A stretch of 64,000 bases of DNA from Prosopocoilus inquinatus (lineage: Eukaryota > Arthropoda > Insecta > Coleoptera > Lucanidae). Made by a program: the position numbers and the translations under genes. This document shows positions 12,195 to 20,335 of this stretch, in pieces (within the stretch, counting starts at the first letter, position 1; each line of letters begins with the position of its first letter). Location of the stretch: positions 14,342,501-14,406,500 of the forward strand of contig CM069877.1 of NCBI GenBank assembly GCA_036172665.1. Direction: 5' to 3'. The notes under the pieces are model-generated. The model worked only from the letters and a program-made list of their open reading frames with translations. It did not search any database and was not told the DNA's origin.

Positions 12195-12198
12195 GTAT
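12195..12198 (+). repeat. Left 4-bp target-site duplication gtat
   Basis: gtat directly precedes the 5' LTR and is repeated directly after the 3' LTR at 18757-18760. A 4-bp duplication is usual for Ty3/gypsy integration. Confidence 0.9.
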
Positions 12199-12535
12199 TG
12201 TGGCGCGCCAACCGGCTTAGCGCAAGGCGTCAAGAAGTCGGTTCGCTGTTATGTGTCATCGGCCGTCACGCCACCGGGGCCTACACCGGGGTCACATCGA
12301 ACAGACTGGAATCTTCCCGCATAGAGAGTTCCAGACGGCGGCGAATGATATAAAATCGCCCCGGGTTGACTCACCAGGCAGTCGAATTCCAACAGCGAAC
12401 GTCGAAGTTAGATTTTAGTGTGAAAATAAATTATTACAAATAAATTAGTTTTTAAGCTTTATTAAATTACGGTTAAGTTTTTATCGAGTGTTTTATTCGT
12501 TTAAATAAATAAACATAAACCCTAGAAACGCAACA
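12199..12535 (+). repeat. 5' LTR, 337 bp
   Basis: It starts tgtggcgcgcc and ends acgcaaca, so it has the TG...CA ends expected of LTRs. It matches 18420-18756 with one substitution and no indel. It contains a TATA box (12349-12356) and several AATAAA sites (first at 12425). Confidence 0.97.
12349..12356 (+). promoter_or_regulatory. TATA box in 5' LTR
   Basis: tataaaat lies about 30 bases before a cagtcg start-site-like motif near 12379. This is a plausible RNA polymerase II promoter for the element. The same box is in the 3' LTR at 18570-18577, where it could drive outward transcription. Confidence 0.65.
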
Positions 12536-12630: not shown

Positions 12631-14178
12631 ATGGCTACGAGAAAAGTGTTGTTGAAAGACTTAAAAGTGGCCGAATTAAAAACCGAATTGGAAGAACGAG
12701 AGTTAGAAACCGGTGGTTTGAAAGGCGCACTTCAACAGCGTCTCCGATCCGATTTGTTGACAGCTGGTGAAGATCCAGAGACGTTCCTTTTCGAAATTTC
12801 GTGTGGTCCCGCCGATTTTAATAAAATCTTGAAGGATGAATTTCGAGAACAATCCAGAAATTTGGACGAGAAGTTTCAAGAACAGTCTGGAAATTTCAAG
12901 GACGAACTTCGAGAACAATCCAGAAATTTGGACGAGAAGTTTCTAGAACAATCTGGAAAATTCAAGGACGAACTTCGAGAACAATCCAGAAATTTGGACG
13001 AGAAGTTTCAAGAACAGTCTGGAAATTTACAGAAGCTTCGAGAACAATCCAGAAATTTAGAGGAGAAGCTTCTAGAACAATCTGGAAATTTCGACAAATT
13101 ACAAAATAAATTGTTGGAACAATCTAGAGACTTAGACGAGAAATTTCTAGAGCAATCCAGAAATTTCGACGAGAAACTTCTAGAACAGTCCGGAAATTTG
13201 AAGGGTGAATTTCTAGAACAGACGAAAGGACTCGAAGATAAACTAGTGGTAAAAATATCGGAAGAAACAAGAAACCTGCAAGAAAACGTGGAAGAAATAA
13301 TATTCCAGCAGGATAACAAAATCAAAAATCTGGAACAAATCATGGCGGGGTTGCGAGTGTTCGGGGATCAGCCACCAGTAGAAGTACTAGAAAATAATGA
13401 AACCAGAATTGTGGAAGGACCAGCAGAAAATTCGAAATTAAAAATAAAACCACCAACGTTCGATGGAAAGTCTTCTTGGCCCAACTACTTCAAACAGTTC
13501 GAAGCAGCAGCAAAGGCGAACAGATGGACGGCCAGCGAAAAAGCCACTTCGTTAATTGTGGCCTTGAGAGGGGACGCTATCGATGTGCTACAGACGATGC
13601 CGCCAGAGGAACAAGAAGACTTCGACAAGCTGGTGAATAGGATGGAAATGCGTTACGGACAGGCCCATCTGACCGAGGTATACCATGCGCAGTTGAGGAA
13701 TCGCTGTCAGAAATCCGGAGAAAGTCTTCAGGAATTCGAAGCAGACGTTGCGCGTCTGGCCCAGTTGGCATATCCCACAGCTCCTGTTGAATTCCTCAAA
13801 TGTTTGACGGTGCAGACCTTCATAGATGGAATCCGTGACCCAGACAACCAGCAGGCATTGAGAATGACGTCCAAGAACGCATTGGCTTATGCCTTGGAAT
13901 TTGAAGCGGCGAGACGAGTCTCAAGAGGGCATGTCAAGGTGCGAGCGGCTATGGACTTCCAAGAGGAAGAAGAGGAAGAATCCGCTAACGCCAAGGTGGG
14001 ATCTGCTATAAATGAGCGACCCAGGGAGTATACCACCGCCGAGGATGTTCGCCGCATTGTGGAACAGGTCTTCAAGCAGAAGAAGCCGCTGGTGTGTTGG
14101 AATTGCCAGGAGGAAGGACATGTTCGCAGGCGATGTCCAAAGCCTAGACAGGATCCAAGAAAGCCACAGTTAAACTAA
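12631..14178 (+). CDS. gag: Gag polyprotein with SAP-like motif and CCHC knuckle
   Basis: Gag builds the particle that packages element RNA. The 515-residue ORF starts at the first ATG after the leader. Residues ~7-41 (LKDLKVAELKTELEERELET…LQQRL) fit a SAP motif, a helix-turn-helix known for DNA or RNA contact. Residues ~71-200 are tandem 22-residue units of the form REQSRNLDEKF, with strong coiled-coil character. DNA units there are about 66 bp. Residues ~268-430 (around PPTFDGKSSWPNYFKQFE) resemble the Ty3/gypsy Gag capsid region. C489, C492, H497 and C502 form a CX2CX4HX4C zinc knuckle. The stop at 14176-14178 directly follows a slippery heptamer. A SAP-like start on Gag is unusual in my experience, though I cannot exclude known relatives. 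Confidence 0.95.
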   Translation: MATRKVLLKDLKVAELKTELEERELETGGLKGALQQRLRSDLLTAGEDPETFLFEISCGPADFNKILKDEFREQSRNLDEKFQEQSGNFKDELREQSRNLDEKFLEQSGKFKDELREQSRNLDEKFQEQSGNLQKLREQSRNLEEKLLEQSGNFDKLQNKLLEQSRDLDEKFLEQSRNFDEKLLEQSGNLKGEFLEQTKGLEDKLVVKISEETRNLQENVEEIIFQQDNKIKNLEQIMAGLRVFGDQPPVEVLENNETRIVEGPAENSKLKIKPPTFDGKSSWPNYFKQFEAAAKANRWTASEKATSLIVALRGDAIDVLQTMPPEEQEDFDKLVNRMEMRYGQAHLTEVYHAQLRNRCQKSGESLQEFEADVARLAQLAYPTAPVEFLKCLTVQTFIDGIRDPDNQQALRMTSKNALAYALEFEAARRVSRGHVKVRAAMDFQEEEEEESANAKVGSAINERPREYTTAEDVRRIVEQVFKQKKPLVCWNCQEEGHVRRRCPKPRQDPRKPQLN

Positions 14179-17100
14179 GCCGGGTCGGTGCAGAGGGGCA
14201 AACGTCGACCTGTATTCAAAGGCCCCCAAAGACGAAAGCCAAACAAGTAATATCCCTACGGCAGTTAACCAGCAGTGTCTTCGTGGATGTCACCATTGAT
14301 GACATTCCTCACACCATGTTGTTGGATACGGGTGCGACGAAGACCATCCTAAGACCCGACGTCATTAAGTCATCTGGACGCACCGAGCCGACCAAGTGGA
14401 AACTGAAAACTGCAACTGGAACATCAGCAACTGTCCACGGTGAAGTAGAGGTTATCATCACCATTGGTTCAACTCCAATAAAACACCGTGCACTGGTGGC
14501 AGATATAGAGGACGAGGCAATTTTGGGCATGGACGTCATGTGTGCCCACGGGTTCCAATTGGACTTAAAGCGTGGCGTGATGGCGGTCAATAATGAGGAG
14601 TTGGTTCTACATCAACGAGGGGACGTGGCCGCTCGAGTAGTCCTCGCTGAAGACGTTGTATTACCCAGCAGGACTGAGGCTATCGTCGACGCAAAACTGG
14701 ACGGTGTTTTCCAAGATGGGCAAGTCATTATGGTTGAACCTAATACTGATGATCAAAGGATTGGAAGAGGAGTCCTCGTTGGGAAAATGTTGTTGACGGC
14801 GAAGAAGGAAGTACCTGTCCGCCTGATGAACGTCAATTGTTTCTCTGTCAATATCAAGAAAGGAACAATCTTGGGAAGCTGCACCATGGTGTCCTCCATC
14901 TCCCGGCAACTTGAAACAAACGTGCCAGAAGCGAAAGTCCCAAAGAAATTATGGGAAATGGTTATGTCAACAGCCCAGGAATTGACTCCAGACCAGAAGA
15001 CAAAAGCAAAGAAACTGATCGGCCGCTATCAAGATGTATTTGAGGTAGAAAATGGATCCAAGGGAAGAACTGATGTCGTGAAACACAAAATAGAGACTGG
15101 AGAAGAAAGACCTATCCGTCAAGCTCCAAGGCGATTACCGTTGGCGAAGCGTGAGGAAGCGGAACGCATTATTCGCGAGATGGAAAAGGATAATGTAATA
15201 GAACCATCAAGCAGCCCGTGGGCGTCACCAGTAGTGCTTGTGAAGAAGAAGGATGGGTCCACCAGGTTCTGTGTAGACTACCGGTTACTCAATAATGTCA
15301 CCAAGAAGGACAGCTATCCCCTGCCACGGATTGATGATACCCTGGACACCCTGGCCGGCTCAAAGATCTTCTCAACTTTGGACTTAAAGAGTGGATATTG
15401 GCAAGTGGAGCTGGCGCCCGAAGATCGAGAAAAGACGGCGTTTTCCATTGGTATGGGTCTGTGGCAGTTCACAGTGATGCCATTCGGATTATGTAATGCC
15501 CCAGCGACATTCGAGAGGTTAATGGAGACGGTTCTGAAAGGTCTGTCCTGGACAACGTGCATGGTGTACCTTGACGACATAACTGTCGTGGGAAAGACGT
15601 TCGACGACCACCTAAGGTACCTGGAAGGAGTGTTCCAGCGGCTTCGCGGAGCTGGACTAAAGCTTAGCCTCAAGAAGTGTCACCTGTTCCAGAAGGAAGT
15701 GAATTACCTGGGGCACATTGTTAATGAAAATGGAATCGCCGTGGACCCTGTGAAGATTCAGGTGGTGAAAGACTGGCCAACTCCCAGAAATAAACACCAA
15801 ATAAGGAGTTTCCTTGGCCTGTGCACTTACTATCGGCGCTACGTTCCTGGATTTGCAGACATTGCTAAGCCGTTAACAAAACTCACTGAAGAAGGTCGTC
15901 CATTTGAATGGGACCAACAGTGTCAAATTGGCTTTGAACAACTAAAGCAGTACTTGGTTAGTGCTCCTATTCTGAGTTATCCTCTCCCGGAAGGCAAGTT
16001 CGTCGTGGACACAGATACTAGCAACGTTGGGATTGGTGGCGTACTCTCCCAGATACAAGAGGGGCAAGAGAAGGTGATCGGCTACTTCAGTAAAGTCCTA
16101 TCAAAGCCGGAACGAAACTATTGCGTCACAAGAAGGGAATTGCTAGCCGTCGTAAAAACGATAGAACACTTCTACAAGTACTTGTATGGTAGACGCTTCC
16201 TGCTGAGAACCGACCACGCCGCTCTAAAATGGCTTCTCCGTTTCAAGAACCCAGAAGGGCAAGTTGCACGATGGATCGAACGACTTCAAGAGTACGATTT
16301 TGAAATTCAGCATCGGGCAGGAACTAGCCATCTTAATGCCGATGCTTTGTCGAGAAGACCCTGTGCCGAAGACTGTAAGCACTGTAGTCGTTTGGAGGAG
16401 AAAGTAGCCACGACTGCGAGGACAGCCATTGTTGACGACAAATGGCAAGCCGAAGAACTGCGAAGAGACCAGGAGAACGACCCGGATTTGAAATTAGTGC
16501 TAGAGTGGAAAAGCAGGGACGCGAGGCCTACCTGGGAAGAGGTAGCACCATGTGCACCGTCCGTAAAATCATACTGGGCGCAGTGGGACTCCATAGTGTT
16601 GGATCGTGGTCTTCTGAGACGAAGCATGGAGAATCCAGAAGGCATGGAAGAGAAGACACAGTTACTAATCCCCAAGAATAGGGTGCCAGAAGTTCTGAGG
16701 GAACTTCACGATGGAACTTCGGGAGGGCATCTGGGAGTTAAGAAGACTATGGAGAAGGTGCGCGAAAGATTTTACTGGGTGAACTGCAAAGAGGACGTGA
16801 AGGATTGGTGCAGAAAGTGTGCAGTCTGCGCAGCCAGTAACGGCCCCCACAGGCGGGGTAAGGCTCCCATGAGACAGTACAACGTTGGAAGTCCTTTTGA
16901 GAGAGTTGCCATCGATGTAGGCGGCCCGTTTCCAGAAACGAATGGTGGAAACAAGTACATCGTCGTGGTAATGGACTACTTTAGTAAGTGGGTTGAAGCT
17001 TACGCCCTACCTAACCAAGAGGCGGTCACTATTGCGGAAGTCCTTGTCAGGGAATGGATCAGTCGGTATGGTGCACCTATGGAACTGCATTCAGACCAAG

Positions 17101-18239
17101 GAAGGAACTTTGAATCGGCCTTGTTCAAGAACGTGTGTACTCTGCTCGGCGTACGAAAAACTAGAACAACTGCACTCCACCCACAGTCGGACGGAATGGT
17201 GGAAAGGTTCAATAGAACCATCAACCGACATTTGTCCAAGGTCGTTTCCAATCATCAGAGGGACTGGGACACGTACATCCCCCTGTTTCTAATGGCATAC
17301 CGCTCATCTGTTCATGAGACAACAGGGGAGACTCCCGCGAAAGTGGTATTCGGGCGAGAGCCGAGACTGCCCTGCGACCTGAAGTTTGGTGTGAAGCCTG
17401 GCGAAGTCTCTGCCGACGAAGATTACGTGAGCAAATTACGCAGGAAAATGGATGATATCCACAACCAAGTGCGTCACAATATACAGACGGCCAGCGATCG
17501 GATGAAGGAGCACTATGACATCAACGCTCAACACGGGGGATACCAACCTGGAGCACTGGTCTGGCTTTATAACCCCCAAAGACGTCGAGGCCTCTCCCAA
17601 AAATTACAGACCTCTTGGGAAGGTCCTTACAAAGTGATGAAACGGATCAACGACGTCGTTTACCGCATCAAGAAGGTCCCCCATGGCAAACCCAAAGTAA
17701 TCCACTTCAACCGGATAGCCCCTTACCATGGAGAAGCAGATGAAGGGACAGTACAAAGGGCGCAAGTTTCCGAAGTGAACTTCGAAACCTTCATGTCTCA
17801 TCACGCCGAAGGAAGCAAGGCACGGTTTGGAGTGACCACGGAGAAGCAACAAGATCTCTTTAAAGTGCCGCTGGAGTACAGTCTGGCCCACTGCGTAGCA
17901 GAAGACCTGAAAATGTCCAAAGGAATCGCTCAGGTGTTTAGGAAAAAATTTGGCCAAATCGAGGAGCTACGAAGACAGCATCCCGTGGTAGGCAAGAGCT
18001 TGCAGATCATTGATTCGACGGCAGATCGGAGGCGCCACGTGCATTATTTAGTCACTAAGAAGACATCAAGCGGTAAACCTGACTATCAAAGTATGTGGAG
18101 AGCCCTATATAGCCTGAGGAGACAGCTAATAGAGAACCATCAGATGAAGTTAGCCATCCCCAAATTGGGCTGCGGATTGGACGGACTAGACTGGAGAGTA
18201 ATTCGAAGCATGCTGGAAGTCATCTTCCACAGAACGTGA
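14148..18239 (+). CDS. pol: Pol polyprotein: PR-RT-RNase H-IN plus macrodomain
   Basis: Residues are numbered from the GTG codon at 14283; the true N-terminus comes from the -1 frameshift, since the frame is open from 14148. Protease: DTGA (D15) and ILGMD. RT: VDYRLLN, MPFGLCNAP and YLDD (Y429-D432). RNase H: D576 and downstream E, D, D (NADALSR). Integrase: zinc-binding H809, H816 and a C843-C849 cluster, then D878, D938 and E974 with exactly 35 residues between the last two. A GPY/F-like module has WEGPY (W1112). All these active-site residues are present. Residues ~1191-1318 form an extra macrodomain. The stop at 18237-18239 appears to cut off the last strand of that domain. The enzymes would copy and integrate the element. 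Confidence 0.96.
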   Translation, partial: TGSKKATVKLSRVGAEGQTSTCIQRPPKTKAKQVISLRQLTSSVFVDVTIDDIPHTMLLDTGATKTILRPDVIKSSGRTEPTKWKLKTATGTSATVHGEVEVIITIGSTPIKHRALVADIEDEAILGMDVMCAHGFQLDLKRGVMAVNNEELVLHQRGDVAARVVLAEDVVLPSRTEAIVDAKLDGVFQDGQVIMVEPNTDDQRIGRGVLVGKMLLTAKKEVPVRLMNVNCFSVNIKKGTILGSCTMVSSISRQLETNVPEAKVPKKLWEMVMSTAQELTPDQKTKAKKLIGRYQDVFEVENGSKGRTDVVKHKIETGEERPIRQAPRRLPLAKREEAERIIREMEKDNVIEPSSSPWASPVVLVKKKDGSTRFCVDYRLLNNVTKKDSYPLPRIDDTLDTLAGSKIFSTLDLKSGYWQVELAPEDREKTAFSIGMGLWQFTVMPFGLCNAPATFERLMETVLKGLSWTTCMVYLDDITVVGKTFDDHLRYLEGVFQRLRGAGLKLSLKKCHLFQKEVNYLGHIVNENGIAVDPVKIQVVKDWPTPRNKHQIRSFLGLCTYYRRYVPGFADIAKPLTKLTEEGRPFEWDQQCQIGFEQLKQYLVSAPILSYPLPEGKFVVDTDTSNVGIGGVLSQIQEGQEKVIGYFSKVLSKPERNYCVTRRELLAVVKTIEHFYKYLYGRRFLLRTDHAALKWLLRFKNPEGQVARWIERLQEYDFEIQHRAGTSHLNADALSRRPCAEDCKHCSRLEEKVATTARTAIVDDKWQAEELRRDQENDPDLKLVLEWKSRDARPTWEEVAPCAPSVKSYWAQWDSIVLDRGLLRRSMENPEGMEEKTQLLIPKNRVPEVLRELHDGTSGGHLGVKKTMEKVRERFYWVNCKEDVKDWCRKCAVCAASNGPHRRGKAPMRQYNVGSPFERVAIDVGGPFPETNGGNKYIVVVMDYFSKWVEAYALPNQEAVTIAEVLVREWISRYGAPMELHSDQGRNFESALFKNVCTLLGVRKTRTTALHPQSDGMVERFNRTINRHLSKVVSNHQRDWDTYIPLFLMAYRSSVHETTGETPAKVVFGREPRLPCDLKFGVKPGEVSADEDYVSKLRRKMDDIHNQVRHNIQTASDRMKEHYDINAQHGGYQPGALVWLYNPQRRRGLSQKLQTSWEGPYKVMKRINDVVYRIKKVPHGKPKVIHFNRIAPYHGEADEGTVQRAQVSEVNFETFMSHHAEGSKARFGVTTEKQQDLFKVPLEYSLAHCVAEDLKMSKGIAQVFRKKFGQIEELRRQHPVVGKSLQIIDSTADRRRHVHYLVTKKTSSGKPDYQSMWRALYSLRRQLIENHQMKLAIPKLGCGLDGLDWRVIRSMLEVIFHRT
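14169..14226 (+). promoter_or_regulatory. Predicted -1 ribosomal frameshift signal (GTTAAAC + pseudoknot)
   Basis: The heptamer G TTA AAC (14169-14175) is in the correct Gag phase, and the Gag stop TAA follows at once. A slip back by one base enters the pol frame, which is open from 14148. Five bases later a 7-bp stem can form (14181-14187 with 14206-14212, one G-U pair). Loop bases GGGGC (14195-14199) can pair with GCCCC (14222-14226), making an H-type pseudoknot. This class of heptamer and spacing is known from other -1 frameshift sites. The fold was drawn by eye and not computed. Confidence 0.75.
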
Positions 18240-18267
18240 ATTGAAGTCCTAGTCTGCAGCCACCACC
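17850..18267 (+). other. TARG1/OARD1-like macrodomain fused to Pol C-terminus
   Basis: Pol residues from ~1191 (DLFKVP…SLAHCVAEDLKMSKGI…FRKKFG) resemble human TARG1/OARD1, which binds ADP-ribose and removes it from protein Glu/Asp residues. TARG1 uses Lys84 and Asp125. Here K1259 (in YLVTKK) and D1300 (in GCGLDGLDW) lie 41 residues apart, the same spacing. The motif LGCGLD is typical of the subfamily. By length, the domain should run about nine residues past the TGA at 18237. Those codons read IEVLVCS, a plausible final beta strand. Family knowledge is from memory. Function in the element is inferred. Confidence 0.85.
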
Positions 18268-18542
18268 CACAGGCAACAGTCAGCAACAGCAAAACCGTAG
18301 ACTGTTACTTCTTCCAGACGGGAAGTTGCAAGAATGGGCCAGCATGTAGATTCCGACACCCTCCTTCAAGACTATCACCAGGAACATTTCGAGACGAAAC
18401 GTTTTTAAGAAGGGGGCAGTGTGGCGCGCCAACCGGCTTAGCGCAAGGCGTCAAGAAGTCGGTTCGCTGTTATGTGTCATCGGCCGTCACGCCACCGGGG
18501 CCTACACCGGGGTCACATCGAACAGACTGGAATCTTCCCGCA
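18240..18542 (+). pseudogene. Post-TGA extension of Pol frame with CCCH zinc finger
   Basis: After one TGA the pol frame stays open for 101 codons, through the polypurine tract and into the 3' LTR (stop at 18543). It first supplies the predicted last strand of the macrodomain. At 18303-18359 it then encodes a CX7CX5CX3H finger (C-YFFQTGS-C-KNGPA-C-RFR-H), a form used by RNA-binding CCCH proteins. Either this copy carries a fresh nonsense mutation, or the extension is made by stop-codon readthrough. The context ACG TGA ATT is not one of the strong readthrough contexts I know, so mutation is the simpler view. Confidence 0.7.
18407..18419 (+). other. Polypurine tract
   Basis: aagaagggggcag sits directly before the 3' LTR, where RNase H leaves the plus-strand primer in LTR elements. 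Confidence 0.85.
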
Positions 18543-18756
18543 TAGAGAGTTCCAGACGGCGGCGAATGATATAAAATCGCCCCGGGTTGACTCACCAGGC
18601 AGTCGAATTCTAACAGCGAACGTCGAAGTTAGATTTTAGTGTGAAAATAAATTATTACAAATAAATTAGTTTTTAAGCTTTATTAAATTACGGTTAAGTT
18701 TTTATCGAGTGTTTTATTCGTTTAAATAAATAAACATAAACCCTAGAAACGCAACA
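18420..18756 (+). repeat. 3' LTR, 337 bp
   Basis: Identical to the 5' LTR except for t at 18611. It is followed by the TSD gtat and host sequence. Confidence 0.97.
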
Positions 18757-18760
18757 GTAT
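18757..18760 (+). repeat. Right 4-bp target-site duplication gtat
   Basis: Matches 12195-12198. Confidence 0.9.
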
Positions 18761-19114: not shown

Positions 19115-20335
19115 GAAAAACGCATATGAAATTTGGTAAACGGTATCATTGATTTTCGAAGTATTCGCCTTTGACGTCAATACCAATTTCTAAAGCACGT
19201 TTTCCACTCTAAAGATGGTACGTCAGAAACCAGTGTTTCAACTGCTGCTTCAGCCGACGAAAATCGCTCACCACGCATTTTATTTCTGATATTTGGGAAC
19301 AAAAAGAAATCATTAGGTGATAAATCAGGTGAATACGGACAATGAGTCATTAATTCAACATTTTTGTTAGACAAAAAATCAACTGTTTGACGGGCTGAGT
19401 GAGAGCTGACGTCATGATGCAGAATAATTCGTCGATTTCGATTGTTTCTTCTTATTTGATCGACTACTTCCGGCAAACAAATTATAATATACCATTCAGC
19501 ATTCACGGTTTCTCGATCCTCTAAAGTCACTGTTGCTACATGTCCAATTAAACCAAAGAAACAAGCAATCATTTGCTTCGCAGCACTGCGTGAACGGACA
19601 ACTTTTGTTGGTTTTGGTTCATTTTGAAATATCCAAACGGTGGCTCGTTGTTTACTTTCTGGCTCGTACGAATAGATCCACGTTTCGTCACCAGTAACGA
19701 TGTTATAAACTAATTTTGAACGACCTCCATTGAATTTCTTGAGCATTTCTTCGCACCATTTGACACGACCCTGCTTTTGCGCTTCTGTTAAATTGTGTGG
19801 GATCCAACGACTGCAAAGCTTTCGTACGTTCAAATGATCACGCAAAATCTGGTGTATTGCTTTCATGTCAATGCGTAAGGATGCTTGAATCTCACGGTAT
19901 GTCACATGTCGATCTCGTTCAAGCATTTCACGCACAGCATCTACATTAGTGGCAACAACAGATGTTGATGGACCACCTTCACGAAATTCGTCACTGAGAG
20001 AGGTACATCCACGATGGAATTCGGCAAACCAATTATAAACACTGCTCTTTGATGGTGTCTCATCTCCAAAAGCTAAATGAAGCCGATCGAGGCATTGTTT
20101 CGGCGTTAGACCACATTTGAAATCGTAAAAAATCATGGCACGAAAATTTTTATGCGAGATTTCCATGTTTACATAAAATTACTTTTTCTCAAATGCTGTA
20201 CAAACAAAACTATTTCACTTGGATAGAAACTGTCAATTGAATTATAGGAGAAAAACGTCAAATTTTTCAAATATGACAGTTGATAAACGCTAACAATTCT
20301 AGACCTACTAGATTCCAGAAAATTTTCCGGCAGCC
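19115..20335 (-). mobile_element. Mariner copy C, both TIRs lost or altered
   Basis: Mariner sequence starts directly at aaaaacgcatatgaaattt without the left TIR seen in copy A. On the right it ends in ggcagcc without the full TIR of copy B. It differs from copy A by several percent up to 4252/19820, then matches without visible difference. With neither TIR intact it should be immobile. Confidence 0.9.
19177..20166 (-). CDS. Mariner transposase C, longest ORF but D33D
   Basis: This uninterrupted ORF of 329 residues on the minus strand has the mariner layout: N-terminal helix-turn-helix region (~1-110), TGDETW with the first catalytic Asp, HHD with the second, and SPDLSPND with the third. Family members keep 34 residues between the second and third Asp. 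Here a 3-bp loss turns the HHDNAS of copy A into HHDVS, so only 33 residues remain. The C-terminus also stops early (FRNWY) compared with the usual ~345-residue length. The ORF is open, but catalytic activity is doubtful. The start is supported by identity with copy A. Confidence 0.88.
   Translation of the reverse strand: MEISHKNFRAMIFYDFKCGLTPKQCLDRLHLAFGDETPSKSSVYNWFAEFHRGCTSLSDEFREGGPSTSVVATNVDAVREMLERDRHVTYREIQASLRIDMKAIHQILRDHLNVRKLCSRWIPHNLTEAQKQGRVKWCEEMLKKFNGGRSKLVYNIVTGDETWIYSYEPESKQRATVWIFQNEPKPTKVVRSRSAAKQMIACFFGLIGHVATVTLEDRETVNAEWYIIICLPEVVDQIRRNNRNRRIILHHDVSSHSARQTVDFLSNKNVELMTHCPYSPDLSPNDFFLFPNIRNKMRGERFSSAEAAVETLVSDVPSLEWKTCFRNWY

Follow-up and report, generated by a model that had tools for sequence, protein, structure and literature searches.

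Why does the Pol polyprotein of a beetle retrotransposon continue beyond its integrase into a domain that resembles a host ADP-ribosyl hydrolase? The question is raised by a stretch of 64,000 nucleotides, referred to here in its entirety as the window, from Prosopocoilus inquinatus (Coleoptera, Lucanidae; assembly GCA_036172665.1, contig CM069877.1, positions 14,342,501 to 14,406,500 of the forward strand), which contains a Ty3/gypsy element whose Pol was initially annotated as ending in a TARG1-like macrodomain. On balance, the evidence presented below is best explained by a captured TARG1 domain that is kept in Pol and would undo host ADP-ribosylation.

Identity and active site of the macrodomain

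The features concerned are the following (window coordinates).

17847..18236, + strand: TARG1/OARD1-type macrodomain, without its last strand owing to a stop codon
18057..18059, + strand: codon of K1259, equivalent of TARG1 K84
18174..18176, + strand: codon of G1298
18180..18182, + strand: codon of D1300, equivalent of TARG1 residue 125
18237..18239, + strand: TGA stop codon private to the window copy (1/48 copies)
18240..18266, + strand: last macrodomain strand by alignment, in frame beyond the stop and matched by a strand in the model of the relative P0119
18291..18365, + strand: CCCH zinc finger, in frame with Pol (PF00642, E-value 1.8e-7)

It is practically certain that the domain, which lies in one unbroken frame with the integrase, belongs to the TARG1 type. 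Human TARG1 is its top sequence match in the PDB (E-value 6e-28), and structure prediction gave a macro fold closest to TARG1, with the ADP-ribose fold kept. The macrodomain proposed by the initial annotation was thus borne out, the residues quoted for it being present, as was its observation that a Lys and an Asp stand 41 residues apart as in TARG1, since K1259 and D1300 align with human TARG1 at exactly this spacing. The Pfam search that had been proposed as a check was less clear-cut, with Macro reaching 21.7 bits on the isolated piece, just under the cut-off of 22, and the identification on this side comes from the PDB match. K84 is named in PMC8501950, and residue 125 is given as Glu in PMC7050489, the PDB sequence showing Asp.

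Both K and D are invariant across the sets examined, including 18 sequences with pairwise identities of 44–91%, a set from which the Macrosteles, Gonioctena and Diabrotica records that are short or degenerate were left out and in which P0004 and P0005 are closely similar. Two other sources for the domain were considered and rejected: an alphavirus-like macrodomain by structure comparison, and capture of bacterial DarG by structure comparison together with the NCBIfam DarG equivalog, which scored 40 bits, its cut-off being 250 for the whole 338-position model and the match covering positions 26-136 alone.

The end of Pol

Pol was initially taken to end at 18239, and this has to be revised for the family. 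The TGA, which cuts off the last strand and leaves the TARG1-type domain of the window copy incomplete, is missing from 47 of the 48 copies examined, so that copies free of it exist, and both the last strand and the CCCH finger follow in frame. These 48 copies comprise eight loci (window copy included) and 40 more, all taken from the 150 scored in the genome search described below, and are biased towards conserved macrodomains. The macrodomain piece is open in all 48, which rules out a misassembly or frame artefact. The finger was found with exact marker strings in 38 copies and with single-residue differences in five, the remaining five having stops or shifts in the tail; its best matches among solved structures are CPSF4-type fingers, and the corresponding part of the P0119 model is of low confidence. 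Beyond the TGA the Pol frame runs on without a stop to at least 18470, 50 bases inside the 3' long terminal repeat (LTR).

Copies and selection within the genome

An insertion private to the window copy, which the initial annotation had left to be checked, is ruled out by further copies in the same genome (best 150 of 1354 candidates scored, all at 99-100% identity) and by relatives in other species; the region is private neither to the copy nor to the species.

We consider it very probable that the macrodomain has been selected for catalysis. The pooled ratio of replacing to silent substitution rates (dN/dS) in the window element's family (family A) was 0.21 for the macrodomain and 0.24 for the integrase end (21 copies each), the copies having been ranked by similarity to a TARG1 exon, which favours conserved macrodomains. 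In a second family described below (family B, 6 copies) the values were 0.23 and 0.24, respectively. A further sample of family A, chosen on macrodomain identity, gave 0.10 (48 copies) and 0.27 (46 copies) but is biased and was not used. Counted as differences from the window copy in the 47 others, broken ones included, silent and replacing changes stood at 154:25 in the macrodomain and 80:119 at the integrase end.

Against these indications of selection must be set, besides the way in which the family A copies were ranked, the values for a third family (family E), with a pooled dN/dS of 0.63 for the macrodomain (12 copies) and 0.52 for a piece of the reverse transcriptase (RT; 10 copies); the ratio of 61:46 in the tail with the CCCH finger (47 copies), which places the finger under weaker constraint; the short Diabrotica fragment P0127, outside the 18-sequence set, in which all three catalytic sites are lost (R, A and E); and the lower identity of the macrodomain (51-62%) than of RT and integrase (71-78%) among six full-length relatives. 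The faster divergence of the macrodomain is as expected of either a domain engaged in conflict or one under weaker constraint.

If the domain were a neutral passenger, a piece of a host gene captured once and carried without function, a stop within its last strand, as in the window copy, would be unsurprising; a stop somewhere in the macrodomain piece was found in one of 68 family A copies examined. The retention of the active-site residues at 44-91% pairwise identity and, in a biased sample, a constraint similar to that on the integrase end make this very improbable.

Related macrodomains in the genome, in other species and in viruses

Searching the same genome with the TARG1 exon (best 150 of 1225 candidates scored) revealed macrodomain-bearing repeats sharing 41-45% identity with the window piece. 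In family B (L109) the order is integrase, macrodomain and long charged tail. Family E (L116 and the adjoining L139) has protease, macrodomain, RT, RNase H and integrase, followed by two envelope-like open reading frames (ORFs) that match the Baculo_F envelope (E-values 2.2e-27 and 9e-10); the copy in question (C3:31.436-31.443 Mb, minus strand) has a stop dividing the protease ORF from the macrodomain-RT ORF and its envelope in two ORFs. In E2 (L119), what comes after the macrodomain looks by eye like the start of an E-like RT, and in F (L123) a protease lies upstream of the macrodomain. TARG1 was the best match in sequence searches for the macrodomains of E (E-value 9.7e-31) and B (E-value 4.5e-42), Pfam Macro being weak for E and E2. 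The K, G and D residues are kept in all copies examined (E 12/12, E2 2/2, F 1/1, B 6/6), and stops in the macrodomain piece were found in two of the 12 E copies and one of the six B copies.

The same genome contains a locus with two tandem TARG1-like domains, the second split by an intron (L107/L108, C5:3751407-3754748), which is taken as the host gene because of its tree placement and the intron. A single frame, open over 416 codons and including a long charged stretch, connects the two domains, which perhaps form one gene with two macrodomains.

Database relatives were found outside the genome itself, chiefly from Aromia moschata, to which 105 of the 117 proteins obtained are assigned; the remainder have the source codes lgn, ena and jgi or are records named Gonioctena and Erysiphe, the latter (a fungus) perhaps representing contamination. 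Later searches added Brassicogethes, Macrosteles and Diabrotica, together with the host TARG1 of flies, a flea and others, and then Molorchus minor and Athalia rosae. Many of these relatives carry names that hide a TARG1-type macrodomain. Conversely, P0127 of Diabrotica and P0122/P0123 of Macrosteles are named OARD1-like but are placed within the clade of retrotransposon domains, and are therefore likely to be element fragments rather than host TARG1. In P0204 the macrodomain was found and the CCCH finger was not; in P0203 of Athalia rosae (LOC125502056) it stands behind RNase H, no integrase being found in the protein. The C-terminal region of P0203 resembles, by eye, a second, worn macrodomain.

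TARG1-like domains also occur in viruses. A structure search of BFVD gave 81 matches at E <= 0.001, of which the best 50 were examined; among the top matches listed were VP8 of Kadipiro virus (46% identity), proteins of flavi-like, virga-like and negev-like viruses of thrips, a Cressdnaviricota protein and an isopod iridescent virus. Two RNA-virus polyproteins with such a domain were retrieved by sequence, P0110, where it lies between methyltransferase and helicase, and P0219. In a viral contig collection the window piece as query found no relative, an alignment as query found 58 loci (L009-L066) encoding relatives of the TARG1 macrodomain, and the RNA-virus piece found nine loci encoding a relative.

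Origin and number of captures

The macrodomains of the elements form one clade in each of three trees (22 rows, 100/95; 21 rows, 99/95; 20 rows, 100/95), which includes the Macrosteles records named OARD1-like. The first tree had 99 rows (P0185 dropped as too short), the second comprised 48 selected database domains with the window domain and human TARG1, and the third left out P0219 and P0114 for their long branches and P0127 for having R, A and E at the three sites. The best trees place this clade amid insect TARG1 sequences; the forks outside it are only moderately supported and the root is a midpoint. The initial suggestion that a host hydrolase had been captured is upheld as to the type of domain, its fold and catalytic pair and its placement among insect TARG1, while the role against PARP-based defence suggested with it is kept as a proposal.

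In the third tree the envelope-bearing family E is sister to the element clade (94/84, not fully supported) and the two host-locus domains lie near it (93/85). Holding all element rows together was not rejected by the approximately unbiased test (p-AU 0.206 in the second tree, 0.25 in the third), nor were the groupings A+B (p-AU 0.107) and A+F (0.337). A single captured TARG1 domain shuffled between element families is thus compatible with these tests, and repeated uptake is proposed because the domain's positions in the polyproteins differ, not because of the trees. That insect Ty3/gypsy elements and arthropod viruses took up TARG1 repeatedly, in response to an undescribed arthropod defence based on ADP-ribosylation, perhaps on nucleic acid, we put forward only tentatively; TARG1 domains in arthropod jumping genes and viruses hint at an ADP-ribose-based defence that needs reversal.

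Proposed function

The proposed sequence of events is that an insect Ty3/gypsy lineage, envelope-free and with a SAP domain in Gag, acquired a TARG1 gene from its host group and retained it as a C-terminal Pol module directly behind the integrase, with a CCCH finger after it. Judging from sequence, modelled fold and catalytic pair, the macrodomain would hydrolyse ADP-ribose esters. It may ride with the complex of integrase and nucleic acid, the finger helping to hold the RNA; host PARP enzymes, the candidate writers, would mark integrase, Gag, cDNA or RNA ends, or chromatin at the insertion site, and erasure of these marks would allow reverse transcription, integration or expression to proceed.

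Protection of the replication or integration complex is inferred from the chemistry of TARG1, from PARP-1 data in flies and from the position next to the integrase. TARG1 strips ADP-ribose from Glu/Asp, whole polymers and nucleic-acid ends, PARP1 being one of its interaction partners (PMC7050489); thymidine-linked DNA marks are also reversed by it (PMC8501950). In flies lacking PARP-1 eight mobile elements changed significantly, five of them upwards, and ten more rose below the cut-off, nine of these belonging to the gypsy superfamily (PMC7712786). The same study detracts from this support in that the other three of the eight significant elements fell, and its authors note that the rise may be indirect, via other repressors. 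Overall, that the macrodomain counters host ADP-ribosylation of element complexes appears slightly favoured.

The domain could also be a reader rather than an eraser, binding ADP-ribose on chromatin or DNA breaks and so tethering the integrase, like the chromodomain of chromoviruses. It stands directly behind the p58_C/SH3 module of the integrase, which is the chromodomain's place, the modelled ADP-ribose fold is kept, and the ALC1-like class includes readers besides erasers (PMC7050489). We nevertheless consider this unlikely: neither K nor D varies in the sets examined, though a pure reader could spare catalytic residues; the domain lies away from the integrase end in family E (between protease and RT) and in Athalia (behind RNase H); and matching folds occur in viruses that do not integrate. 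Somewhat less likely still is an eraser acting on nucleic acid, which would remove ADP-ribose from the RNA ends or cDNA of the element, as TARG1 and DarG do from thymidine-linked DNA; of the catalytic pair DarG retains the lysine alone (PMC7050489), and hence is not the closer model. We retain the removal of host marks from element complexes as the preferred explanation.

Element layout

The other features of the element are listed below.

12195..12198 and 18757-18760, no strand: target-site duplication GTAT, 5' and 3' copies
12199..12535, + strand: 5' LTR, 337 bp, TG...CA, one mismatch to the 3' LTR
12631..14178, + strand: Gag ORF
about 12652-12753, + strand: SAP domain in Gag
about 14092-14142, + strand: CCHC knuckle in Gag
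14169..14175, + strand: GTTAAAC heptamer directly before the Gag stop, putative -1 frameshift site into Pol
14283..18239, + strand: Pol ORF of the window copy up to its TGA, with protease, RT, RNase H, integrase and macrodomain
16668..17723, + strand: integrase with H2C2, rve core and p58_C/SH3 (GPY/F-like) module (Pfam)
18407..18419, + strand: putative polypurine tract, also read in relatives as the LRRGQ end of Pol
18420..18756, + strand: 3' LTR, 337 bp

LTRs differing at a single position and GTAT on both flanks indicate a recent insertion. The LTRs, the short target-site duplication and the order protease, RT, RNase H and integrase place the element in Ty3/gypsy (Metaviridae-like); Pfam recognised protease, RT, RNase H, H2C2, integrase core and Integrase_p58_C in Pol. 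No chromodomain was found by Pfam in the pieces 17520-18236 and 18240-18418, and the 180 bases between the Pol stop and the 3' LTR, themselves traversed by the Pol frame, leave no room for an envelope gene of the Errantivirus-like kind. The Pol frame is open from 14148 (1363 codons), and the GTTAAAC heptamer is likely the site of -1 frameshifting from Gag; no unusual RNA fold was detected downstream of it (z 0.58). LRRGQC is present in the relatives P0002, P0003, P0004, P0006, P0096 and P0102.

Gag also contains, at 12814-13253, a run of mostly 33-bp repeats encoding EQSRNLDEKF-like units, and the 3' side of the element is adjoined by a mariner/Mos1-type transposase ORF of 329 aa (19177-20166, minus strand).

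Comparison with known systems

That viral macrodomains counteract ADP-ribosylation by the host has been discussed for vertebrate infections. With a TARG1-type eraser fixed in a retrotransposon that is young and present in many copies, and placed at other positions in further families of its genome, this conflict would extend to transposable elements, which opens the question of whether ADP-ribosylation, with PARP-1 as a candidate in flies, restricts retroelements in insects and on which molecule. The initial annotation knew of no Ty3/gypsy lineage with such a fusion, and no description of a TARG1 domain in Ty3/gypsy Pol was found among the open-licence papers listed, judged by their titles and the opening of their abstracts.

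Chromoviruses are Ty3/gypsy elements with a C-terminal chromodomain behind the integrase, which binds methylated histones; the window element likewise has an extra domain behind its integrase, a macrodomain instead of a chromodomain. Alphaviruses and rubella virus, too, have a macrodomain within a viral polyprotein. The nearest precedent found is that of epsilon-like endogenous retroviruses of fish, for which additional macrodomain ORFs are reported (Basta 2009, as cited in PMC4977317); these are also retroelements with an acquired macrodomain gene, but are vertebrate retroviruses and have it as an additional ORF. The arthropod viruses (Kadipiro virus VP8, the flavi-, virga- and negev-like viruses of thrips, the isopod iridescent virus) share the TARG1-like type of domain at up to 46% identity, and are RNA or DNA viruses, not retroelements. 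The closest likeness, by sequence and model, is to TARG1/OARD1/C6orf130 of the ALC1-like class itself, with which the domain has in common its sequence, its modelled fold, a Lys and an Asp 41 residues apart and a conserved glycine; TARG1 stands alone, whereas the domain in the window is fused behind an integrase, with a CCCH finger after it.
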